Shown piece after piece: positions 241 through 14,447 of a stretch of 64,000 nt of DNA (its first letter is position 1; every line of letters begins with the position of its first letter). The position numbers and the translations under genes were made by a program. This DNA is from Cyanomargarita calcarea GSE-NOS-MK-12-04C (lineage in GTDB: Bacteria; Cyanobacteriota; Cyanobacteriia; Cyanobacteriales; Nostocaceae). The notes below the pieces were generated by a model. That model made no database searches. It was not told the origin of the DNA and was given only the letters and a program-made list of their open reading frames with translations. The stretch is from the NCBI GenBank assembly GCA_019359595.1, contig JAHHGZ010000010.1:1-64000 (forward strand), read 5' to 3'.

Positions 241-474
241 AAATAGATTCTGACTCAAGTCATATAGAAACAATTGAATTCAAATAGGTTGCTTAAGTGA
301 CATAAATAACATCAAGCAAATAATAGCGCTTTTTTCGCTTTATTGCATAAACCATAGAAATTTTTGTGAATAAATCCAAAACATGACGATTAGTAACGAA
401 ATAACATCAAATTGTGTCGAAATCTTAATCGATGTAAAGTTAACAATTTCGGAGCCTCCTGTCAGGCTACTCCG
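241..474. other. AT-rich spacer beyond the leader-distal end of CRISPR array 1
   Basis: No gene is visible. An imperfect inverted repeat (GGAG..GCC / GGC..CTCC, about 451-474) touches the last repeat and could form a weak hairpin at the end of the leftward pre-crRNA transcript. It lacks a convincing T-run. Confidence 0.4.
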
Positions 475-2192: not shown

Positions 2193-3308
2193 TTACTCCT
2201 GATTCTTTAAAGCCCGACGTGCTAACTTAACATAAGTTTTCACAGTTTCATAAGGCATCTCCAAATCTTCCGCGACTACCTGCAACGACTCACCCATCTC
2301 TCGCCTTGCTAATATTGTCGCCCATTTAGAAGCAGTTTCATCCGCACGGGTTCCCCCTGTTCGCTTGCGTTGTGCTTTAAAAATCTCAATTAAATCTTCA
2401 ATTCGTTTTGCTAACACAGTCTGCACATCGGGTATATCTTGCACAACCTCAGATGACCAACCCAAGCGAGTTTGTCCCAATCCAAAGGTAGTTTTATGTC
2501 CAGTACCGCAATAGGGTGCAAGTTTTCCCAAAGCGTAAAATAATTGATAATATTCTGGCTTTTTCTCAGCAACATTTGTCAAACTTAACTCAACTGCACC
2601 AGTAAAACCTGTCACCGAACCTCTTTTACCGGCTGGTACTTTCATTGTTGTTAGATGACAGCGATTAATCAACACACAATTATCAACCCAATCTAAGAAC
2701 TCATCTTGATCGACAGTCATTCCCGAAAAATCATTCCACCGTCGCAAGTAGCTGTGGAAAATATTCGCTGGTACTGGTAGGGGAAAATGATGACCTTTGC
2801 GACGAAAACTTGTAGGAGTAAGGAATTGTAGCGTCAAAGTCCCACCAACTTCAGAGTTTAGTAGTTCCGCATAAGTTGTGGGAGGATGGAGAATATTGCA
2901 AGCCTTTATTTGTAAAGGTGCATCGCGCAAATCAACAATACTCGGTAAATTATTTGTCCACTGCGCTAGCCATTCCTGAACTCGACGGGATAAAACCGTG
3001 ACATACCAACGATAGGTACTGTTTGCTGATAATTGTAACTGCCTACCAGTACTAGTGATTTCTCCATCCAGCCCAGAAATAGTAAAAGCTTTTTCCGACT
3101 CTCCATCATGAAGATATGCAGAAAGTCCTGGGTCATTTTGTTGTACTTGCTGGAGAAACCAAGCATGAAGTCCCACAGTATACTGAGGAACCAAATAAAA
3201 ATCTTTTTCAGCTACCAACTCGAACTCCAGCCCAACCAATTCCGTGTCTAACGACCATTTGAACTGAGATTCAGATGTGGTTGGCTTTTTGCGGGTTTGT
3301 CTGGGCAT
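2193..3308 (-). CDS. cas6: CRISPR pre-crRNA endoribonuclease Cas6
   Basis: This 371-aa RAMP-family protein is the pre-crRNA processing nuclease that cuts within the repeat to release crRNAs. The N-terminal ferredoxin-like part contains the family-typical segment around TVGLHAWFLQQ (His48, a candidate catalytic histidine). The second half has the glycine-rich Cas6 signature near residues 230-285 (VTGFTGAVELSL and FGLGQTRLGW). The last 60 residues form an extension with a predicted helix-turn-helix (MGESLQVVAEDLEMPYETVK), which could add nucleic-acid binding. It ends 25 bp before the leader of array 1. It is the only Cas6 seen; both arrays share the same hairpin and handle, so one enzyme could serve both. 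Confidence 0.92.
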   Translation of the reverse strand: MPRQTRKKPTTSESQFKWSLDTELVGLEFELVAEKDFYLVPQYTVGLHAWFLQQVQQNDPGLSAYLHDGESEKAFTISGLDGEITSTGRQLQLSANSTYRWYVTVLSRRVQEWLAQWTNNLPSIVDLRDAPLQIKACNILHPPTTYAELLNSEVGGTLTLQFLTPTSFRRKGHHFPLPVPANIFHSYLRRWNDFSGMTVDQDEFLDWVDNCVLINRCHLTTMKVPAGKRGSVTGFTGAVELSLTNVAEKKPEYYQLFYALGKLAPYCGTGHKTTFGLGQTRLGWSSEVVQDIPDVQTVLAKRIEDLIEIFKAQRKRTGGTRADETASKWATILARREMGESLQVVAEDLEMPYETVKTYVKLARRALKNQE

Positions 3309-3965: not shown

Positions 3966-4271
3966 TCAAGCTTGAGAGTTATGAAAATTTAACCACTGCA
4001 AAACCTGTTCGGGAATCTCCTCGAAATGTTCCAAGAAAAAATCCATCAAAGCGAGATGAAGTAAATCGCTGTGTGTGGGGTAGCGTCGGTTTTGACCATT
4101 TCTAAACCAGCCTCGCACGGTAGAATCAGAACGCGAACATATCAAAGCAATTTGCTCGTAACTTACACCCCATTTTGCATAAAACTGTGTTGGTGTCATA
4201 CTAAAATCCCAATCGCTATAGAGTTGAATCAGCCGTAATTCTCGCATTTGCAATGAATGAGGTTTAGGCAT
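3966..4271 (-). CDS. small helix-turn-helix protein, 101 aa
   Basis: The middle of the protein (FYAKWGVSYEQIALICSRSDSTVRGWF, about residues 30-57) reads as a helix-turn-helix in which the second helix is a candidate recognition helix. The C-terminal third is a helical segment rich in Leu, Phe and Glu. Similar short HTH proteins are frequent in filamentous cyanobacteria, often near mobile genes. It lies between the RelE-like gene and the small hypothetical in the cas strand orientation. It may regulate the neighbouring toxin-like gene or the locus, but that is inference. Confidence 0.6.
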   Translation of the reverse strand: MPKPHSLQMRELRLIQLYSDWDFSMTPTQFYAKWGVSYEQIALICSRSDSTVRGWFRNGQNRRYPTHSDLLHLALMDFFLEHFEEIPEQVLQWLNFHNSQA

Positions 4272-4347: not shown

Positions 4348-4620
4348 TTAGTGCGAATCTAAATGCGTAACGAGAATGCTTCGTTCTTCCTCCATATAAA
4401 GCCAATAAAATCGTTTCGCCATTGATGCAGAAGAACTCCAAACATAACCATCTGTGCAGTGATATCGATGCGTTCTTAAACTGCGGTAATTCGGGCCATT
4501 ATTAGCGAAACATTCAAATGCTTTGTCGTATTGCTTACGGTCTAAAGAGGGTAATGCATCAAGTTGTTTTTCAGCTTTTGAACTAAAAATCAAACGAAAC
4601 TTGAAAGTTTGAATGTGCAT
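4348..4620 (-). CDS. RelE/ParE-like toxin, solitary
   Basis: I chose the internal ATG at 4620 (product MHIQTFKFRLIFS..., 90 aa) over an ATG 51 bp upstream because family members start this way. The order FSSKAEKQLDALP, SLRTHRYHC, YVWSSSASMAKRFYWLY, ILVTHLDSH follows the beta-helix-beta fold of RelE/ParE-superfamily mRNA-cutting toxins. There is no typical adjacent antitoxin; the downstream 101-aa HTH protein is the only candidate partner. It sits directly after cas2 on the same strand. Confidence 0.55.
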   Translation of the reverse strand: MHIQTFKFRLIFSSKAEKQLDALPSLDRKQYDKAFECFANNGPNYRSLRTHRYHCTDGYVWSSSASMAKRFYWLYMEEERSILVTHLDSH

Positions 4621-4791
4621 TTTGAATGTGCATTCAATAGTTTCCAAATACCCAAACTTAAAACCTCGCACAGAAACCTTTATGCATTGGTGGTGCGCGT
4701 GCTTTTTTCCAAGCGTTCATACTGGTATTATTAGTAAGGCAAATATTTGTCTAAATCTTGGACGGAATGTATCGCATTTCTACAGCACCTC

Positions 4792-5070
4792 TCACACAAT
4801 AAACGCGGCATCGTCTACCACAAATTCAGGTTGCGTCCCCACCACTGCGACTTTACAACGATTGTGAGCAGACATAGGATAAAATCTCACTTGGTCTTCG
4901 CGCTTGTTCACAAGTCGCATTAGGTATTTAGACACAATTTGGTACTGATTTTCATCCAAAACGCACTCGAAAACCGATTTTTGTACGCGAAGTCCGTAAG
5001 CTTCGAGAATTTTTGACACTTTGGTACGACGTGTATCGCTAACAATGTCATAGCAAACAAGGTAAAACAT
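4792..5070 (-). CDS. cas2: CRISPR-associated protein Cas2
   Basis: This 92-aa protein is the dimeric core of the Cas1-Cas2 spacer integrase. It opens with MFYLVCYDIVSDTRRTKVSKIL, the ferredoxin-like first strand with the conserved Asp of the family (YDI..D.RR), followed by GLRVQKSVFEC and the second strand DQVRFYPM. Its start is 2 bp after the cas1 stop, so the two genes should be co-translated. It is the only cas2 in the window and may also partner the RT-Cas1. Confidence 0.95.
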   Translation of the reverse strand: MFYLVCYDIVSDTRRTKVSKILEAYGLRVQKSVFECVLDENQYQIVSKYLMRLVNKREDQVRFYPMSAHNRCKVAVVGTQPEFVVDDAAFIV

Positions 5071-5072
5071 GA

Positions 5073-6122
5073 TTATTTCACCAAGGTTAATGCTGTTTTC
5101 TGAGGTCTAGCGATATTTGTGAAAGTAGAATGATTGGGATGAAATTTCAATGCTAAAGGACGGTAATATTCTACGTCACCAAGCAAAGACGCAATATATT
5201 CGCGCACCTGTAAATCGATGCACTGACGATATGTAACTTCCCCTGCATAAGGATGAAGTACAAAAGTTCGGAGTTTTCCTTCCCAACATTGGAGGAACTG
5301 TTGAAGTAGAGTATGGGTTTTTTTCCCATTTCCATTACCGTTGCCATTAGATTTCAAACTAGTCAGATTACGAGCAAAATTTAACACTAAGTCATCGACA
5401 ATCGGTGCGCGAAATTCTGCCGCGAAATCCCATGCTAAGGGTAGTTCGTGACAACTGCTGTGGTGTAAAATTGCGTAATCTGGGTGAAGTCCTGCGGTGT
5501 TAAGAAAGGTGTAAATATATTGATGAAGCAGTGTATTCCCCAGGTTTTGCAGTCCACTAATGTGCTTTGCGGTTGTACGTGGGCATCCGTTGTTATAGAA
5601 GCTGAGTAAGGAAGCAACGGCACAATAATAGATATTATCAGCTTCCTCACTGCATTCGTGCAATTCGTTAATAGACCCTGAAGAAGGTAAATTATCAATC
5701 ATCAACGTCAGGTAATTTAATGCACGTTGGGTTGTATGGTTTGCGTGGTACTGAGTCCAACTTTGCAAAAAAGTATGTTGGTTGTGCAATTTTGCCCAGA
5801 TGATACTTTCTGCTGTCGCACGATTAAATTCAGTATCCCGTGCGCGTCTACACTGGTAAGTTAAGTATTTTGGTCGCAATTTTGAGAGGTTTTCTAGTCT
5901 TCCTAAAGGTTCACCTTGTTGGGTTAAATACAACGCAGGAATTTGATGGCAGTATATAGTTTGAATCACTTCCTTTGGTAGATGAATATTACCAAAGATG
6001 AAGAATTGACTAATATTGCGAATGGGAATACAGATACGTTGCTTTTGTTGGTGAAATACCTTAAAATATTGGTGCTGTACTTGATATGAAACGTCCGATT
6101 CGGTGATGTAAATTGTGGACAT
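5073..6122 (-). CDS. cas1: stand-alone Cas1 integrase
   Basis: I chose the ATG at 6122, giving 349 aa that begin MSTIYITESDVSYQVQHQYF, because the upstream in-frame extension is AT-rich and overlaps an iterated operator-like motif. The metal-binding triad is present by alignment with the RT-fused Cas1: Glu159 (SEEADNIYY), His220 (GLHPDYAILH) and Asp232 (LPLAWDFAAEFR). A run of Asn-Gly repeats (SNGNGNGNGKK, about residue 257) is a low-complexity linker. Together with Cas2 it should form a complete adaptation complex independent of the RT-Cas1. The leader-distal end of array 2 lies 0.5 kb upstream. Confidence 0.95.
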   Translation of the reverse strand: MSTIYITESDVSYQVQHQYFKVFHQQKQRICIPIRNISQFFIFGNIHLPKEVIQTIYCHQIPALYLTQQGEPLGRLENLSKLRPKYLTYQCRRARDTEFNRATAESIIWAKLHNQHTFLQSWTQYHANHTTQRALNYLTLMIDNLPSSGSINELHECSEEADNIYYCAVASLLSFYNNGCPRTTAKHISGLQNLGNTLLHQYIYTFLNTAGLHPDYAILHHSSCHELPLAWDFAAEFRAPIVDDLVLNFARNLTSLKSNGNGNGNGKKTHTLLQQFLQCWEGKLRTFVLHPYAGEVTYRQCIDLQVREYIASLLGDVEYYRPLALKFHPNHSTFTNIARPQKTALTLVK

Positions 6123-6237
6123 AGGTTCAGCAAAGTAAAAGGTTAAAAGTAAAAAGAGGAAAGCTTGCTCTTGCTTTTTACTTAATTCCATCATCTCAAA
6201 CTGATATCTGAGTTCATATCTGCGCAAACGCAATTTT

Positions 6238-6268
6238 TATATGAGTTCGTATATGAGTTATATGAGTT
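6238..6268. promoter_or_regulatory. iterated TATATGAGTT motif upstream of cas1
   Basis: Three copies of TATATGAGTT start at 6238, 6250 and 6259, about 116 bp upstream of the chosen cas1 start. The same motif, as TATATGAGTT and TATATGACTT with the same 12-bp period, occurs at 9377-9431 between RT-cas1 and the HTH-DUF4384 gene. A shared regulator site is likely. Confidence 0.55.
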
Positions 6269-6488
6269 GAGAAAAAATACTCTTTATCTCATGATTTTTT
6301 CTTGTACAGTGCAAACATAATACGCTTTGCGTCAATTTCCTGGCTTATTGCACTCCTACAACTTTCACTGAGGGAAATATCCAATCTTGTGGGATGGCCC
6401 GTCCGAAAAACTGGAAAAGCAGGGATGCCCACCCCACAAGAGATTTTTGGATATTTTTTATTTGGAATTCCCTAAGAAACACTATCAA

Positions 6489-6519
6489 AAGGGGTTAAGC
6501 TTCGTTTAACCCCTTCGAC
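6489..6519 (-). terminator. hairpin at the distal end of array 2
   Basis: A perfect 10-bp stem (AAGGGGTTAA / TTAACCCCTT, arms 6489-6498 and 6506-6515) with a 7-nt loop is followed, in leftward transcription, by a short T-run. It would end the array 2 transcript before cas1. The right arm overlaps the first bases of the direct repeat that begins at 6511. Confidence 0.5.
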
Positions 6520-6621
6520 GTATCTCAATAAATCGTTTTCTATTGGTGAAGTTAACATTGACAAAACCACTGTTGCCTGAAACACCCTTCGACGTATCTC
6601 AATAAATTGTTTTCTATTGGT
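6511..6621. repeat. CRISPR-like direct repeat pair of a different sequence family
   Basis: Two 37-bp copies (6511-6547 and 6585-6621, one mismatch) begin CCCTTCGACGTATCTC and end TTTTCTATTGGT. They are separated by 37 bp of unique sequence, the same period as the real array 4 bp to the right. The repeat is unrelated to the neighbouring CRISPR repeat and lacks its hairpin. It could be a remnant mini-array of another CRISPR type or a local duplication. Confidence 0.6.
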
Positions 6622-6625
6622 CAAG

Positions 6626-6806
6626 ATTTTCATCCCCGTGAGGGGTAAATAATTTCAAACGAAAAAAAACTACAAGAAAGTAGGTATACCGGACAAAGTT
6701 TCCATCCCCGTGAGGGGTAAATAATTTCAAACAAGAAGGGACACCATAACGGATCCTTCGGACATCTTAATGTTTCCATCCCCGTGAGGGGTAAATAATT
6801 TCAAAC
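6626..6806 (-). CRISPR. CRISPR array 2, three repeats and two spacers
   Basis: Repeats are at 6626-6660 (degenerate start), 6698-6732 and 6772-6806; spacers are 37 and 39 bp. The repeat shares the hairpin and the ATGGAAAC handle with array 1 but differs in the other half (minus strand GTTTGAAATTATTTA rather than GTTTTGAATTTATTA). The degenerate copy at the left is the leader-distal end, consistent with leftward transcription from the leader on the right. Its shortness suggests a young, rarely expanded or trimmed array. Confidence 0.95.
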
Positions 6807-7077
6807 CCTTACCTTTTGAAACCCTTGGCATTAATGGCTTTAAAAGGGTCATTTTAGCGGGGGGTCTAAATCCTCTGTCAACAAGCTCAACTTATTGACA
6901 ATAGGCAACATATATACCGTCCTCAAACCTATATGTAGCAAGCGATTAGCGGGGGTCAACGAAAGAATAAGGGTTCCAGAGGTTGCCTTACCCCCGCTAA
7001 AAAGTTACGTGTGCATAGTCAAAAAAAATACTTTTGCTTTCACTTAGAAACGTGAAATTAAGTTGTCAAGGTTCTGT
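6807..7077 (-). promoter_or_regulatory. leader of CRISPR array 2 with predicted promoter
   Basis: It is homologous to leader 1 (1899-2167). On the minus strand TTGACA (6876-6881) and TAAAAT (6851-6856) are 19 bp apart, as in leader 1, placing the start of transcription about 40 bp before the first repeat. The 11-bp inverted repeat (6946-6956 / 6990-7000) is preserved exactly while much of the rest has diverged, which points to a functional site. The leader follows the 3' end of RT-cas1. Confidence 0.85.
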
Positions 7078-7156
7078 TAGACATATCCGAGAGTATAACG
7101 TAACACTCTAGATTTTTTCGCAGCGCCAACAACAAACTTAACATAAGTTTTCTTGA

Positions 7157-9181
7157 CTATCTCTCCCAAATAATCGGTCGGTAAATTTCCACCTCACCTT
7201 TCAAGCAAGAAATATACTCCCGCACCTGTAACTCAATAGCACGACGGTATGCTACTTTTTGTCCGGTATGGGGATGGGTCAATTCCGATTGCAACTTTTC
7301 TTCCCAATGCTTGAGAAACTTCTTGAGTGCGTGCGGCTGAAAATACACCGCTGCTCGTTCGTCGGGTAATGTAAAATCATCAATCGTAAAAACTTGAGAA
7401 TTAACCAAATAAGTTACTAAAGAATCGACCAACTGCGATCGCCACTCTTCGACTAAATCTGAAACCAATGCTGGGTGATTATCACGGGGAACGTGTAAAT
7501 TGCCAAAATGGGTATGCAGTCCTACAGCTTGGATAAAAGAAAAAACATTTTGGCTTAATAAAGTGTATCCCAGACTCAGCATACTATTAATCGGGTCAGT
7601 GGGTGGGCGTTTTGTGCGCTTCTCAAATTTAAACTCACCAGAAAATAAACTTCCCAGTGCTTGAAAATAAACTGTCGCAGCTTTTCCTTCATACCCCCGT
7701 AACATATCCATATTTTCTGCAAAGGGTAATTTACTCATCAAAACGTCTAAATCATTAACGGCCGTTTTAATCAGCTTTCCATCAGTATCTTGAGATTTGC
7801 GACGACGATTTAATCGCATTAGCAATATCCGTGAATTATGTAACTTTGCTTTCACTATGGCTACAGCTTGTTTTTTGACAAACTCCGGATTTTGGCAACA
7901 CTCCACCTGCCGCATCAAATACTCAACTTTTGCATCACCTTCTACCTGCAACCTACCGAAATATCTGCCTTTTTGTGACAAGTACATAATTAGAATTCGT
8001 CTCCGTAAGGCTAGAGAAGCAGCACCATGAGATACATTACAAGAACCAAATAAAACAATACTACTGACACGACTTACCGGAACCTTAATCCGTAATTCCC
8101 CCTGATAAAAAACTTGAAATTGCTGATTTTTTACACTCAAATATGCACCTTGGTCAGTTATATATAAAGTAGTCATTGCTTCCTGCCAATAATGGGAATT
8201 TGACGCTCTCGGAAAATTAATCGGCTTGTCGATACTGCAAGCCTTCGGAGGACGAGAAACGGGTTTCGTTGGTTTGGGCTTAGTGCGAAAATAAGGCGTA
8301 CCTGAATCGTTGATTACCCATTCACCTTCTCGGATGGGTTTGGGTATTGGAGGTGCGTAAACTTCACCCCATGCGAAGCGATAACCCAGAAAAGTAAACT
8401 CGTCTGTGGGAATAAAAATCTGTGTCTTTTCTGGTTGTAGAGTTAAATAAACCTCCCCTAACCACCCGCTAACTTTGTCGAGAATACGGTTAGCTTCTTG
8501 CCAACTACTACAAGCAATAGCAAAATCATCTCCGTACCTTACTAAATTAATCCCGTGACTGAGACATTTTCTATCAAAATTAGTCAAGTATAAATTTGCC
8601 AATGCCCCAGAAAGTACACCACCTTGCAACACACCTTTACCTGGATAAACAGGTTTTCCAGCGATGACAATACCCGAACGCAGTTGTCCTTCAAGTAATC
8701 GCAATACAATTGGTTCAAGCTTCAATTCCTCCAACGCAGTTAACAACAACGGCCAACAGAGGTTGTCATAAAAATCGGCGATATCAGCTTTGATAATCCA
8801 TTTTGGCTGATACTGGTAGTAGGAATACAAATGCTGTACAGCTTGCTGGATGCCTCGTCCGGGACGATAGGCATAGCTGCAATCGAGAAAAGTATCTTCC
8901 AGGGGAAAATACAGTTCATCAAGTAGTAAACGCTGCACGATTTTGTCCTGCACCGTAGGAATGCCAATCAACCGTTTACCGCCATTTTTCTTAGCGATAT
9001 AAAACCCTTTAGCAGGGCTTGCAGTATAAGTTTCGTAGTGGATTTGGTAAGCAATATTGCGTAATTTATCGGCAGCCATTGACTCAAATAAGTCAACAGA
9101 AATACCATCTACACCCGCAGCTTTACTTCCCGCACGAATTTGTAACCATGCGGCTGTAATGAGTTCGAGGGAAAAATGCAT
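7157..9181 (-). CDS. reverse transcriptase-Cas1 fusion
   Basis: This 674-aa protein fuses a group II-intron-like reverse transcriptase (about residues 1-270) to a Cas1 integrase (about 335-674) through a Pro/Lys-rich linker. RT motifs appear in order: KKNGGKRLIGIPTVQDKIVQ, SYAYRPGRG, IIKADIADFYDN (catalytic Asp133), LQGGVLSGALANLYL, YGDD (216-219; many relatives have YADD), LQPEKTQIF and FLGYRF. The Cas1 triad is intact: Glu498 (GYEGKAATVYF), His563 (GLHTHFGNLH) and Asp575. Such fusions belong to type III systems and can acquire spacers from RNA. There is no Cas6 domain in front and no dedicated cas2 next to it. It is upstream of leader 2. Confidence 0.96.
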   Translation of the reverse strand: MHFSLELITAAWLQIRAGSKAAGVDGISVDLFESMAADKLRNIAYQIHYETYTASPAKGFYIAKKNGGKRLIGIPTVQDKIVQRLLLDELYFPLEDTFLDCSYAYRPGRGIQQAVQHLYSYYQYQPKWIIKADIADFYDNLCWPLLLTALEELKLEPIVLRLLEGQLRSGIVIAGKPVYPGKGVLQGGVLSGALANLYLTNFDRKCLSHGINLVRYGDDFAIACSSWQEANRILDKVSGWLGEVYLTLQPEKTQIFIPTDEFTFLGYRFAWGEVYAPPIPKPIREGEWVINDSGTPYFRTKPKPTKPVSRPPKACSIDKPINFPRASNSHYWQEAMTTLYITDQGAYLSVKNQQFQVFYQGELRIKVPVSRVSSIVLFGSCNVSHGAASLALRRRILIMYLSQKGRYFGRLQVEGDAKVEYLMRQVECCQNPEFVKKQAVAIVKAKLHNSRILLMRLNRRRKSQDTDGKLIKTAVNDLDVLMSKLPFAENMDMLRGYEGKAATVYFQALGSLFSGEFKFEKRTKRPPTDPINSMLSLGYTLLSQNVFSFIQAVGLHTHFGNLHVPRDNHPALVSDLVEEWRSQLVDSLVTYLVNSQVFTIDDFTLPDERAAVYFQPHALKKFLKHWEEKLQSELTHPHTGQKVAYRRAIELQVREYISCLKGEVEIYRPIIWER

Positions 9182-9376
9182 GGAAAGTTAAAGGGTAGAA
9201 GTTAAAAATCATTAATCTACAAAAAAGAAAACTCAAATGTGTAATTTGAGGTATTATATTGGGAAGCATCACCGCAAATTCCTCTGCACAATCGAGGAGG
9301 CTAATCAGCATTCAAAAAACAAAATATTCTTTGTATTTCTTTTTACTTTGCCTTTAAATTAATTTTTGCACCCCTA

Positions 9377-9431
9377 TATATGAGTTCATGTATGGGTTAT
9401 TGACTTAGTTATATGACTTCGTATATGACTT
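9377..9431. promoter_or_regulatory. iterated TATATGASTT motif between RT-cas1 and HTH-DUF4384
   Basis: Copies occur at 9377 (TATATGAGTT), 9389 (TGTATGGGTT), 9397 (TTATTGACTT), 9410 and 9422 (both TATATGACTT), mostly 12 bp apart. The cluster ends 30 bp before the HTH-DUF4384 start and about 200 bp upstream of RT-cas1. It matches the cluster upstream of cas1. Confidence 0.55.
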
Positions 9432-9461: not shown

Positions 9462-10205
9462 ATGGGACGTACTCTGGTTGCATCACCTGAAGGCGTTAAT
9501 CATGCAAGAAAAGCCTTAAAAGTTAGAAATTTAACCCAAACCGATTTGGGTATTGAGGTAGAATTAGCCTACTCAACTGTTAGTAATTTTTTTAACGAGA
9601 AACCCATATATCGCACGAATTTTCAGGAAATCTGCACCTTCCTGGATTTAGATTGGCAAAATATTGCTGCACCTGGTGAAGAAGAAACCCAGAAACTAAC
9701 ACTCCTCGAAGAACTTTGGCAAAAACTTCAAACCTTAGGTTCACCCACCGAACAAATGGGATTAGTCATAGCACAAGAGGAAACCCTCGGTTGGACAAAA
9801 AAAATACCAAGTCGTTACGAAAAATCAGTGCGAATGGGTAGCTATATTCGTTTTGAAGTCAATTTGGAAACACCAGGATATTTACTACTGCTACAAAAAG
9901 ATACATTAGGACAATTGTGGTGTTTTTGTCCCTCATGTTTTGCACCTCAGCCACAATTAGAAAAAGGTAAAACAAGTCTTCCGCAAGAAAGTTCACCCAT
10001 TACCTCATTTCACATTGAAGGTACACCAGGTAAAGAACAAATTCTGGCAGTAATTACTCAAGATATGCCTAAATTGGAATGGCTATCACAAGCAAATGAC
10101 GAACCTTTAGAGTTAACCGAAAGCTTTCTTGGGGAATTACTCAATTATATAAGTACTAGTCGAGATAATCAGATTATATATACCGAATATGAAATTGTTG
10201 AGTAA
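9462..10205 (+). CDS. HTH-DUF4384 protein, candidate CRISPR locus regulator
   Basis: The N-terminus (residues 1-70) is a helix-turn-helix of the Cro/C1 or cyanobacterial type, with ARKALKVRNLTQTDLGIEV and AYSTVSNFFNEKPI as candidate helices. The C-terminal part (about 120-230) matches the pattern of DUF4384: MGSYIRFEVNLETPGYLLLL, then LWCFCPSCFAP and PGKEQILAVIT. DUF4384 domains elsewhere are fused to kinases or proteases and are thought to be ligand or protein binding. The gene is divergent from RT-cas1 and has iterated motifs in front of it, so I infer that it regulates itself and the adaptation genes. A TPR-CHAT gene follows downstream. Confidence 0.75.
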   Translation: MGRTLVASPEGVNHARKALKVRNLTQTDLGIEVELAYSTVSNFFNEKPIYRTNFQEICTFLDLDWQNIAAPGEEETQKLTLLEELWQKLQTLGSPTEQMGLVIAQEETLGWTKKIPSRYEKSVRMGSYIRFEVNLETPGYLLLLQKDTLGQLWCFCPSCFAPQPQLEKGKTSLPQESSPITSFHIEGTPGKEQILAVITQDMPKLEWLSQANDEPLELTESFLGELLNYISTSRDNQIIYTEYEIVE

Positions 10206-10244: not shown

Positions 10245-10691
10245 AATTAGCCCACGCAGGTGGGCTTTGTACCCCTCCGGGGAAGCAAGCAACGTATAGC
10301 CCCACCCTTCTAGGGTGAAGGGCTAAGATAAACTGGTTTGTAGAACATCGACGACGATTGTTTCTAACCCACCCTTCTAGGGTGAAGGGCACTAAGATAA
10401 ACCCTCAAATAAATTTCAGGGCTAAAAATGTCTTAACTTAGTACCTCTCCCCGATCCCTGCGGTGTATACACAATATCACAATATCGCCCTCACCCTAGA
10501 AGGGTGGGGCGTTGTGCGTGCCAAGCCCACCTGCGTGGGCTAAAATCTTTCTAGCCCATGCTTGTAATCAGAACTATTACGATTATCACGGCGATTATCC
10601 CACCTGCGTGGGCTAAAATCTTTCTAGCCCATGCAGTTGGGCTTCCTTTGTTTAGCTCTACCTTTCTAGGGTGAGGGACTTAACTTTTCAC
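10245..10691. repeat. cluster of dispersed palindromes between HTH-DUF4384 and TPR-CHAT
   Basis: The palindrome AGCCCACGCAGGTGGGCT and its partner CCACCCTTCTAGGGTGAAGGG occur several times, in direct orientation at 10245-10392 and inverted at 10487-10545, with partial copies to 10680. The stretch holds no gene. A GTG inside the last copy (10671) could extend the next gene, but it is more likely repeat sequence. Confidence 0.75.
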
Positions 10692-13600
10692 ATGAAAAAT
10701 ATCTCAAACATCATCGAGAAACTAAATCAACTTAATAGCAGAGTTGTCAAACTAGTTGAAGAAGGAGATTTTGAGTCAGCATTATTAGTCACGCAACAAG
10801 CAGTAAAATTAGGTGAAGAAAGTAGGAGCGAACATCCAGCTATAGCCGATAGCTTGAATAACCTTGCAGAATTATATCGGATGCAAGGACGCTATTTGTT
10901 AGCAAAACCCTTGTATCTTAAAGCCTTCAATATGAGAAAATCCTTATTAGGAGAATCACATCCCGATATTGCTCAATCTTTAAATAACTTAGCCGCATTT
11001 TTAGTTACCCAAGGACATTATCAAGAAGCAGAAGAAAAATTATTTGCAGCCTTAGATATCTGGAAACAGCACTTGGGAGAAGAACACACAGAAATAGCAA
11101 CCAATCTCAATAATATTGCTGAAGTCTATCGTGAACAAGGACGTTATCGAGATGCTGAACAGATGCATCTAAAAGCATTATCAATGCGAAAGCATTTGCT
11201 TGGTAATGAGGATATCGAGATAGCCCAAAGCTTAGGTAACCTTGCAGCGCTTTATGAAACTCAAGCCCAATATTCAAAAGCCGAAGAATTACATCTAGAA
11301 GCATTAGCAATCACAAAAAAAGTGTTAGGTGATGACCATTGGTACATTGCTGTAAGCTTTAATAATTTAGCTGCATTATACGACTCCCAGGGACGATTTT
11401 CTCAAGCGGAAGAAAATTATTATAAAGCCTTAAATATCTGTCAACAATCATTTGGAGCAGAACATTCCTATATAGCAATTACATTAAATAATATTGCATC
11501 TAATTATAAAGAACAGGGACGCTATCAAGATGCAGAGAAGAAGCATTTAGAAGCTTTAGCAATGCGAAAAAATATATTTGGAGACGAACATCCCGAAGTT
11601 GCAATGAGTCTTTCCCATCTAGCAGAAATTTATCAGGAGCAAGGAAGTTATCAAAAAGCGGAAAAAACTTGTTTAGAAGCCTATCAAATGCGAAAACGTC
11701 TTTTGAGTGCAGAACATCCAGATATTGCCGTTAGCTTACAAAATTTAGCTGTATTATACTCATATCAAGGGCGATACCCAGAAGCAGAAGCAAAATATTT
11801 AGCAGCATTATCCCTCTTGGAAAATTTATTCGGAAAAGAACACCCTGATGTTGCCCAAAATTTTAATAATCTTGCTGGACTTTATCAAGAACAGGGACGT
11901 TTTTCTCAAGCAGAACAAAAATATTTAGAATCCTTAGAGATTAGAAAGAAACTACTCGGACAAGAACACCCTGATATTGCCGATAGTTTGGGCAGAATCG
12001 CAGAACTTTATCGTCAGCAAGGACGCTACAATCAAGCCGAAGAAATTCATCTAGAAGTATATCGAATGCGCAAACGCTTACTAGGAGAAATGCATCCCGA
12101 CGTTGCCGCTAGTCTCAACAATTTAGCAGTATTATATGATGCAAAATCACAATATTCTCAAGCTGAATTATCAGCTTCAGAAGCATTATTAATTACCAAA
12201 AACCTATTTGGCAACAATCACCCACAAGTTGCCAGCAATATGAATAATTTAGCTGCCATCTATGGAAGTCAGGGACGTTACTTAGAGGCAGAAGAAATTC
12301 ATTTAGAAGCTTTAAAAATCAGAAAATCTTTATTAGGAGAAACCCATCCTGATATTAGCAATACTTTAAATAATTTAGCGAATATATACTTTGCTCTTGG
12401 ACGCTATCCTGAAGCGGAGCAAAAGTATAGAGAAGCTTTATCTCTGCGTCAGAATTTATTGGGAGAATCACACCCAGATGTGGTATTAAGTTTAAATAAT
12501 CTAGCAACTGTATTAACTGCTACCAATCGTCCTGCTGAAGCTTTATCATGTCGCATTCAGGCAAGCAACATTAACGATAAAATAATTAGTAATATATTTT
12601 CCTTTAGTTCAGAAAATGACCGTCTGGCCTTTGTCGAAAAAATCAGAAATAACTTTGACCTATTCCTTTCTTTAGTTTGTAACCATCTTCCTAGTTCTCA
12701 AGATGCCAAACAAGCAGCATTAGATTTTGTCCTCAAACGTAAAGCTGTAACTGCATCAGCACTCACGGCTCAAAACCAGGCACTTGCTAACGGACGTTAT
12801 CCTCATCTGACAGAAAAATTTCGCCAACTCAATAACTTAAGCAACCAAATTATTCATCTAACTTTTGCAATTCCCCAAACAGATAATTCTGCTCCATACC
12901 AAGAAAACCTAAAACAACTGCGATCGCAATATAACAGCCTGCAAAAACAGCTAGCTGCACAAGTCCCAGAAATTCAATTATCCCAGCAAACCTGCGACTC
13001 TTATACCGTCGCATCCGCTTTACCCAATAACTCAGTCTTAATTGAATTTGTCCGATTTGATACCTTTGATTTCCAAGCGATTCAGGCAAACAGCGAACCT
13101 CAATGGCTTCCCGCTCGTTACGTAGCATTTATATTACCTGCAAATCAACCCGATGCGGTACAAATGGTAGATTTGGGGGAAGCCTCAACCATCGATGAAT
13201 TAATTTTGCAGTTTTGCACCATTGCCTCGGATAATACGAAAAATACCCTAGGATGGGGTAAAAAGGCTAAGATTCAATCCCATAACCCCGCTACCGGAAT
13301 TCAACTTTATAAAACACTCTGGCAACCTATTCAAAAAATAGTACAAAATTACCAACATATAATTATTGCCCCCGATAGCAACTTGAATTTGCTGCCATTT
13401 CAAACATTACCTTGCAATGATGCAGGTACACGCTTGTTGATTGATGAATGCACTATCAGCTATTTAAGCGTGGGACGGGATATTCTGCGAAGTCATTGCA
13501 GCACCTCTGGAATCGAAAAGCGAGCCGCAAGTCCAGCATTAATACTTGCCGACCCAGATTTTGATTTATCTGATGTTACTAAAAATACACGCAGACCTAA

Positions 13601-14447
13601 CCCCCCTACCCCCCTTCCCTGCGAGGGAAGGGGGAAATCAAAGTCTCTCTCTAATAATCAACTTGATGAATTTGTACTCAGCTTAGATGAAACCAGCCTA
13701 TCTCGGGCACCTGGTACAAAATTGTTAGGAGAAAGCATCGCCAAAAAGCTACCGGGAGCAAGGCTATACACTGATATACAAGCACTAGAAACTCGTTTAA
13801 CAGCCAACGATTGTCCCATTGTAATGCTTATTGCCACACACGGCTTATTTATTCCCGATTCGCAACACCAACCACCCGATAAAACAAGATTTGCAAAAGC
13901 AACCAACCCAATGCTACGTTCTGGACTTGCTTTAGCCGGGGCCAACATCTGGCTATCTGGTGGAACTCTCCCAAAACAAGCAGGTAAAGGCTTCATTCTT
14001 GCACAGGATATTGCAGGTTTAGACCTGTGGGCAAACGAACTGACTGTATTATCTGCCTGCGATACTGCTAGAGGAGACATAAAAATTGGCGAGGGTGTAT
14101 TTGGCTTACGACGTGCATTTGCGATCGCAGGTTCAAAGAGGCTGGTAATGAGCCTGTGGAAAGTCCCAGATAAAGCAACGGCCCTGCTAATGGAGCCTTT
14201 CTTTGATTACTTGCATGACGGGATGGGATGTGCAGAAGCATTACGAAAGGCCCAAAATTATATCCGTAAAATTACTGTGAAACAATTGCGGCAGTCTACT
14301 CTGGGTTTGGAAGTCCTCAAAGAAAGGTTACGACTAAATGAACTGTCACAACAGAGCAAAATTGATTGTCACGAAGAAGATGAACCACTTGAGCATCCTT
14401 TTTACTGGGGAGCATGGATTTGTCAGGGGGGAGATACACATAGGTGA
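10692..14447 (+). CDS. TPR-CHAT putative caspase-like protease, 1251 aa
   Basis: I chose the ATG at 10692; an in-frame GTG 21 bp upstream lies in a repeat. About 14 kinesin-light-chain-type TPRs of 42 aa (pattern SLNNLAELYRxQGRY..AE..HPD) fill residues 30-620. A C-terminal CHAT domain has the His/Cys dyad: His1050 in MLIATHGLF and Cys1123 in TVLSACDTARGD, with FWGAW-like FYWGAW near the end. CHAT proteins are caspase-family proteases; TPR-CHAT proteins are common in cyanobacteria, and one family (Csx29) is the protease of type III-E CRISPR. No gRAMP is present, so a CRISPR role here is only suggested by position. An in-frame repeat insertion is at 13610. Confidence 0.85.
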   Translation: MKNISNIIEKLNQLNSRVVKLVEEGDFESALLVTQQAVKLGEESRSEHPAIADSLNNLAELYRMQGRYLLAKPLYLKAFNMRKSLLGESHPDIAQSLNNLAAFLVTQGHYQEAEEKLFAALDIWKQHLGEEHTEIATNLNNIAEVYREQGRYRDAEQMHLKALSMRKHLLGNEDIEIAQSLGNLAALYETQAQYSKAEELHLEALAITKKVLGDDHWYIAVSFNNLAALYDSQGRFSQAEENYYKALNICQQSFGAEHSYIAITLNNIASNYKEQGRYQDAEKKHLEALAMRKNIFGDEHPEVAMSLSHLAEIYQEQGSYQKAEKTCLEAYQMRKRLLSAEHPDIAVSLQNLAVLYSYQGRYPEAEAKYLAALSLLENLFGKEHPDVAQNFNNLAGLYQEQGRFSQAEQKYLESLEIRKKLLGQEHPDIADSLGRIAELYRQQGRYNQAEEIHLEVYRMRKRLLGEMHPDVAASLNNLAVLYDAKSQYSQAELSASEALLITKNLFGNNHPQVASNMNNLAAIYGSQGRYLEAEEIHLEALKIRKSLLGETHPDISNTLNNLANIYFALGRYPEAEQKYREALSLRQNLLGESHPDVVLSLNNLATVLTATNRPAEALSCRIQASNINDKIISNIFSFSSENDRLAFVEKIRNNFDLFLSLVCNHLPSSQDAKQAALDFVLKRKAVTASALTAQNQALANGRYPHLTEKFRQLNNLSNQIIHLTFAIPQTDNSAPYQENLKQLRSQYNSLQKQLAAQVPEIQLSQQTCDSYTVASALPNNSVLIEFVRFDTFDFQAIQANSEPQWLPARYVAFILPANQPDAVQMVDLGEASTIDELILQFCTIASDNTKNTLGWGKKAKIQSHNPATGIQLYKTLWQPIQKIVQNYQHIIIAPDSNLNLLPFQTLPCNDAGTRLLIDECTISYLSVGRDILRSHCSTSGIEKRAASPALILADPDFDLSDVTKNTRRPNPPTPLPCEGRGKSKSLSNNQLDEFVLSLDETSLSRAPGTKLLGESIAKKLPGARLYTDIQALETRLTANDCPIVMLIATHGLFIPDSQHQPPDKTRFAKATNPMLRSGLALAGANIWLSGGTLPKQAGKGFILAQDIAGLDLWANELTVLSACDTARGDIKIGEGVFGLRRAFAIAGSKRLVMSLWKVPDKATALLMEPFFDYLHDGMGCAEALRKAQNYIRKITVKQLRQSTLGLEVLKERLRLNELSQQSKIDCHEEDEPLEHPFYWGAWICQGGDTHR
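13610..13634. repeat. 25-bp palindrome inserted in frame within the CHAT region
   Basis: A perfect 11-bp stem (CCCCCTTCCCT / AGGGAAGGGGG) with loop GCG, preceded by C-rich sequence, is a dispersed cyanobacterial repeat type. Here it is translated as PNPPTPLPCEGRGK within a region between the CHAT core strands, so it probably adds a surface loop without breaking the frame. Confidence 0.8.

Follow-up and report, generated by a model that had tools for sequence, protein, structure and literature searches.

A four-site direct-repeat operator shared by RT-cas1 and cas1 in a cyanobacterial CRISPR module and its candidate HTH-DUF4384 regulator

The first 64,000 nucleotides of contig JAHHGZ010000010.1 of Cyanomargarita calcarea GSE-NOS-MK-12-04C (the whole stretch is called the window below) contain a cyanobacterial RT-Cas1 CRISPR module, with a reverse transcriptase–Cas1 fusion gene (RT-cas1) and a stand-alone cas1. 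Both adaptation genes are preceded by the same array of direct repeats, and a gene encoding a helix-turn-helix (HTH) protein with a DUF4384 domain lies divergent from RT-cas1. The best explanation as a whole, and one we hold to be likely, is that the repeats form an HTH-bound four-site operator that co-activates RT-cas1 and cas1, with the regulator repressing its own expression. CRISPR memory formation would then probably be switched by a dedicated sensor-regulator.

Exact copies of TATATGASTT begin at 6238, 6250, 6259, 9377, 9410, and 9422, the positions at which a sequence-only reading of the window had placed them, upstream of cas1 and in the gap between RT-cas1 and the HTH gene. The single 10-mer was rejected as evidence because its frequency is near expectation (11 matches at ≤1 mismatch versus 9.75 expected); the signal is the clustering. 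A scan with a repeat model finds an identical architecture in both regions, four 10-bp sites spaced by 12, 21, and 12 bp. Operator 1, in the RT-cas1/HTH-DUF4384 gap (9377–9431, plus strand), comprises sites 9377–9386, 9389–9398, 9410–9419, and 9422–9431. Operator 2, upstream of cas1 (6205–6268, plus strand), has its four sites at 6205, 6217, 6238, and 6250, with a fifth at 6259. The earlier reading had recognized the shared motif and overlooked the weaker sites 6205 and 6217, and hence the common 12-21-12 spacing. With a four-site position weight matrix, the two regions score 50.1 and 57.3, whereas the best of 100 dinucleotide shuffles of each region reach −16.1 and −7.6; the training set includes both window regions, and independent evidence comes from other families. 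Besides chance-like matches at the 3-mismatch limit, the 7.9-Mb genome has no further instance of the full four-site pattern, which argues against a global regulator. A lone exact TATATGACTT at 257–266 (minus strand), at the distal end of array 1, has no partner site and is treated as chance.

The array is retained where the regulator is found beside RT-cas1 in other genomes. The six full-length HTH-DUF4384 relatives first found all adjoin RT-cas1 and a TPR-CHAT gene, all carry the same four-site array in the RT-cas1 gap, and five of them carry it before cas1 as well, the exception being L042, in which cas1 has moved. A second, named collection of 13 relatives, partly from the same genomes, presents the same picture, with HTH-DUF4384 genes adjoining RT-cas1 apart from L218, whose regulator gene has moved elsewhere, and L222, which matches only in part. 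Examining orthologous loci that keep the regulator had been proposed as a check on the sequence-only reading. The operator lies before RT-cas1 in the loci examined, degraded in L221 and with site 4 split by an insertion (about 4990–5190) in L211, and it is found before cas1 where the upstream region was covered and cas1 is in place. The L211 insertion is possibly a small mobile element.

The repeats extend beyond the HTH-DUF4384 lineage. Across 391 genomes from the order, the pair motif was located beside RT-cas1 and cas1 in other families as well, and further RT-cas1 loci were gathered by protein similarity alone and then read. The divergent gene of these other families shares only about residues 3–75 with HTH-DUF4384; in most, the rest is a NACHT/STAND ATPase of about 1150–1400 residues. 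The matrix built from the window's family gives a median of 45.4 in 37 HTH-STAND regions of other families, some of which were first found via the motif itself, versus −24.8 in 19 others (Mann–Whitney 3.7e-9), a crude HTH-minus group, several regions of which encode a shorter HTH-STAND protein and have TGAGTT pairs in degenerate form. Two members initially placed in it, L141 and L142, have degenerate repeats and score 24–25. The sole clean negatives are L158–L163, of a distant RT-Cas1 lineage, with neither the HTH gene nor the repeats in the loci read. The HTH-NACHT gene of Synechocystis 6803 pSYSM has no clear operator, and Pseudanabaena galeata (L225), from another order, has RT-Cas1, a divergent HTH-AAA gene, and four TATATGASTT sites at altered spacing. 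Operators also precede RT-less Cas1 genes that have no local HTH gene, in L098 (9854–10870), L108 (10048–11064), and L109 (10605–11627); these genes are 76–81% identical to the Cas1 half of RT-Cas1, and those of L098 and L109 adjoin repeat arrays.

Recognition of the repeats by the HTH protein itself is best supported by the TGASTT repeats that precede HTH-STAND genes chosen blind to CRISPR. Fifty-seven HTH-family genes were sampled by HTH similarity only, irrespective of any CRISPR genes at a distance, and corrected for orientation. Within 350 bp upstream, TGASTW occurs 86 times in the sense and 29 times in the antisense orientation, with spacing peaks at 11–12, 21–23, and 33 bp. Pairs at 12, 21, or 33 bp number 13, versus 0.15 expected in mononucleotide shuffles (maximum 2 in 200). 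These pairs are carried by only 9 of the 57 genes, so the code is not family-wide without exception, and the sample as a whole points to a direct-repeat code that belongs to this HTH family. The proposal that HTH-DUF4384 binds the motif is strengthened, since the motif follows the HTH into STAND/NACHT loci and into the CRISPR-blind sample, and corrected in that the HTH, not DUF4384, tracks the motif. Operator base 6 (G or A) may covary with HTH residues, S or N following KP[IV] in L118/L120/L123, L107, and L127, with L101 as an exception, which is suggestive only because these rows are neighbours in the RT-Cas1 tree.

Alignment of 60 operator regions on the operator reveals a fixed promoter geometry. 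Counted from site 1 towards the adaptation gene, TG occupies positions 7–8 in 51 of 60 regions, and AnnAT positions 11–15 likewise in 51; no other offset shows a signal of similar strength. This TGN-nAnnAT element is most readily taken as an extended −10, exactly 6 bp from site 1. The predicted elements in the window are TG C AAAAAT for RT-cas1 (9362–9370, minus strand) and TG A GATGAT for cas1 (6190–6198, minus strand), each 6 bp from site 1. No conserved −35 is left on the adaptation-gene side of the 60 regions; sites 1 and 2 fill that place, and the nearest site ends 9 bp from the −10 hexamer. With the repeats standing where a −35 would be, and in register with the −10, the geometry favours, without proving, activation of the adaptation genes by an activator of the SARP/MalT type.

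The opposite face of operator 1 appears to serve the regulator. A TTGACT between the site pairs (9400–9405, plus strand) is the probable −35 of the HTH-DUF4384 promoter. Of the 21 operators that adjoin a divergent regulator gene, 13 have TTGAC between the pairs; of the remaining 39, one does (Fisher 4.6e-7). In L122, the relocated regulator gene carries TTGACA and one pair, and its RT-cas1 operator lacks TTGAC. Because TTGAC tracks the regulator gene, adjacent or relocated, it is probably the regulator's own −35, which suggests autorepression, as bound protein would cover its own promoter. The operator/regulator interpretation of the sequence-only reading thus survives in outline and is refined by promoter geometry to putative activation of the adaptation genes plus autorepression.

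The regulator candidate (9462–10205, plus strand) has an N-terminal XRE-type HTH at about residues 9–68 followed by DUF4384 (Pfam 3.9e-15). Pfam HTH_26 matches weakly, below cut-off (E 0.0012). The AlphaFold2 model places helices at 9–21, 26–32, 37–44, 51–60, and 65–68, with a predicted local distance difference test score (pLDDT) above 90 in most of the HTH (block values of 92–96 for residues 11–70) and moderate modelling of the remainder. Foldseek likens the HTH to HipB, VanUg, and C.BclI at a probability of 1.00, but with E-values above 0.001 for the whole model, and it returns no useful match for DUF4384. The model shows a confident five-helix fold of the XRE/Cro-C1 type at residues 9–68. 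Pfam finds DUF4384 only and no STAND/NACHT ATPase in the window protein; STAND is present in the relatives of other families. A tree built from 42 RT-Cas1 proteins unites the DUF4384 loci in a single group (94/88; recovered in 93% of bootstrap trees) that lies within the STAND loci. Genes for DUF4384 proteins without the HTH have a TPR- or TPR-CHAT-like gene directly after them in most of 22 loci read (L013–L017 and L051–L067), a widespread two-gene unit. The simplest history would be a single exchange of the STAND half for DUF4384, which brought its TPR-CHAT partner along. The TPR-CHAT protein downstream of HTH-DUF4384 in the window (10671–14447, plus strand) is a conserved partner; most copies retain the His and Cys motifs of CHAT, which read ATHG and SACDT here. 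By analogy with Craspase, it may be guessed that TPR-CHAT signals to or cleaves HTH-DUF4384.

The operator, its conservation, the HTH co-occurrence, the fixed promoter geometry, and the domain replacement are read from the sequences; from them we infer binding, activation, and autorepression, and the TPR-CHAT signal is speculative. HTH-DUF4384, a member of a cyanobacterial XRE-type regulator family whose C-terminus is usually a STAND/NACHT ATPase, would bind the four-site direct-repeat operator. At RT-cas1, and at cas1 with cas2, bound protein would take the −35 position of the extended −10 promoter and recruit RNA polymerase, so that both adaptation genes would be turned on jointly. Protein bound at operator 1 would also cover the regulator promoter on the opposite face and limit regulator expression. 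In the DUF4384 lineage, the neighbouring TPR-CHAT protein probably supplies the signal. The earlier suggestion of a dedicated regulator coupling both adaptation genes is supported in outline by one shared operator type, its two copies in the genome, and the HTH co-occurrence.

Several observations weigh against co-activation by the HTH protein. L221 retains the regulator with a degraded operator, four RT-cas1 loci (L146–L149) have no HTH gene beside RT-cas1, although L147 has one about 10 kb away, and TTGAC is absent from 8 of the 21 adjacent arrangements. Sites that span the −35 region could just as well serve to keep polymerase out, and the same binder might act with the opposite sign, the HTH protein repressing RT-cas1 and cas1 until it is released by a signal, either sensed by STAND or given when CHAT cleaves HTH-DUF4384. 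Extended −10 promoters can function without a −35, many XRE regulators are repressors, and DUF4384 is paired with a putative protease, all of which fit repression. The repeats, however, stand in register with the −10 much as in SARP activator promoters, at 9 bp from the hexamer here and 8 bp there, and no −35 is conserved; we regard repression as unlikely, though a serious competitor.

The binder could instead be the orf101 HTH, the C-terminal HTH of Cas6, or a global cyanobacterial regulator. Both orf101 and the Cas6-HTH fusion lie within the cas operon, and the Cas6 domain could bind in place of the HTH-DUF4384 protein. In the window, the C-terminal region of Cas6 (2193–3308, minus strand) matches PADLOC PDLC01151, an HTH often fused to Cas6. 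Against a different binder, the repeats precede HTH-STAND genes sampled without reference to CRISPR and the genome has two operators only, and we consider such a binder improbable. The orf101 protein is disfavoured, since several loci that encode it have a missing or degenerate operator; orf107 and cas2 likewise persist at such loci. An origin as mere tandem-repeat noise, or as the remnant of a mobile repeat of the sort common in cyanobacterial genomes, is highly improbable. A single 10-mer is not rare, and some genomes have TATATGAGTTTTTATATGAGTT tandems at a distance from cas genes, but the 12-21-12 spacing, the orientation, and the −10 distance are fixed across many families, a conservation that contradicts noise. 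The many-copy TATATGAGTTTTTATATGAGTT tandems in G245, G059, G277, and G077 (L112, L113, and other loci) and in G001 have no cas genes nearby in the stretches read and were treated as unrelated.

Co-activation by the HTH-DUF4384 family resembles several known systems in part. The SARP/AfsR regulators of Streptomyces, which combine a DNA-binding domain with NOD (STAND) and TPR, use direct repeats with a period of roughly one helical turn that adjoin the −10 and stand where a −35 would be, and their large forms have a STAND/TPR sensor; repeat spacing is 11 or 22 bp, and 8 bp separate the −10 from the closest repeat (PMC10936776). The window shares the fixed distance of repeats from the −10. SARPs differ in their OmpR-type DNA-binding domain, BTA domain, and 11-bp repeats, whereas the window system has an XRE-type HTH, 12-bp repeats in two pairs, DUF4384, and CRISPR adaptation genes as targets; Pfam and Foldseek detect no OmpR-type or BTA domain in its regulator. 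MalT-type activators also fuse a STAND ATPase to a DNA-binding domain and undergo inducer-driven multimerization (PMC6468293), but with the DNA-binding domain at the C-terminus and a different regulon. Csa3a of Sulfolobus is a dedicated regulator that raises cas1/cas2 transcription (PMC10013973), but it is an archaeal CARF-domain factor, unrelated in protein and site, and the Pfam scan of the window proteins shows no CARF domain with winged HTH (Csa3). CvkR and Arc regulators of cyanobacterial type V-K CRISPR-associated transposons (CAST) are likewise dedicated and encoded divergently from the CRISPR gene they control, but are of MerR or Arc type, and CvkR is a repressor of cas12k/tnsB rather than of adaptation genes (PMC9938897). 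Dedicated CRISPR regulators (Csa3a, CvkR) and STAND activators on direct repeats are already known. We found no report of this regulator or operator in the open-access literature; in word searches, HTH, NACHT, and "regulat" are absent from the main text of PMC5541045, and HTH and NACHT from PMC5513706, a second RT-Cas1 paper, in which "regulator" occurs once.

The module runs from cas6, small genes, cas2, and cas1 on the minus strand through an array to RT-cas1, also on the minus strand; HTH-DUF4384 and TPR-CHAT follow in divergent orientation on the plus strand. RT-cas1 spans 7157–9181 (minus strand; Pfam RVT_1 and Cas_Cas1) and cas1 5073–6122 (minus strand; Pfam Cas_Cas1), its start (MSTIYITE) picked by ortholog comparison. 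Two base pairs downstream, cas2 (4792–5070, minus strand; Pfam Cas2) is probably co-transcribed with it. The pairing of RT-Cas1 with a second, more distant cas1 recalls the RT-CRISPR-3 clade of cyanobacterial RT-Cas1 (PMC5541045), which the window resembles in this gene content. The small genes at 3966–4271 and 4348–4671 (minus strand) have no Pfam match; many RT-Cas1 loci conserve them within the cas operon. Both window arrays have similar leader-like flanking sequence on the same side (1905–2160 and 6815–7100). Cas10-like matches sit on other contigs of the genome, so the effector genes appear not to share the operator. Several modules elsewhere are plasmid-borne, namely L224 (pANACY.01), L226 (pMIC7113.03), and L225 (pPg_04), and one of these plasmids is typed conjugative.

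Little is understood of when cells permit new spacers to be acquired, and the known regulators dedicated to adaptation genes are few. The prediction made here is of a dedicated adaptation regulator with an exact operator and a family-wide DNA code, whose sensor would be of the same class as the nucleotide-binding leucine-rich repeat (NLR) immune receptors of animals and plants. Loci of this kind are present in Anabaena cylindrica PCC 7122 (plasmid pANACY.01), in Allocoleopsis franciscana PCC 7113, an HTH-STAND strain, and in Fischerella muscicola PCC 7414, and their presence in named culture strains makes direct testing possible. More tentatively, spacer acquisition, including that by RT-Cas1, may be inducible in these cyanobacteria, with a NOD-like STAND sensor, or in the window's lineage the caspase-like TPR-CHAT protein acting via HTH-DUF4384, turning on both adaptation genes from their common operator upon infection and independently of the effector genes.
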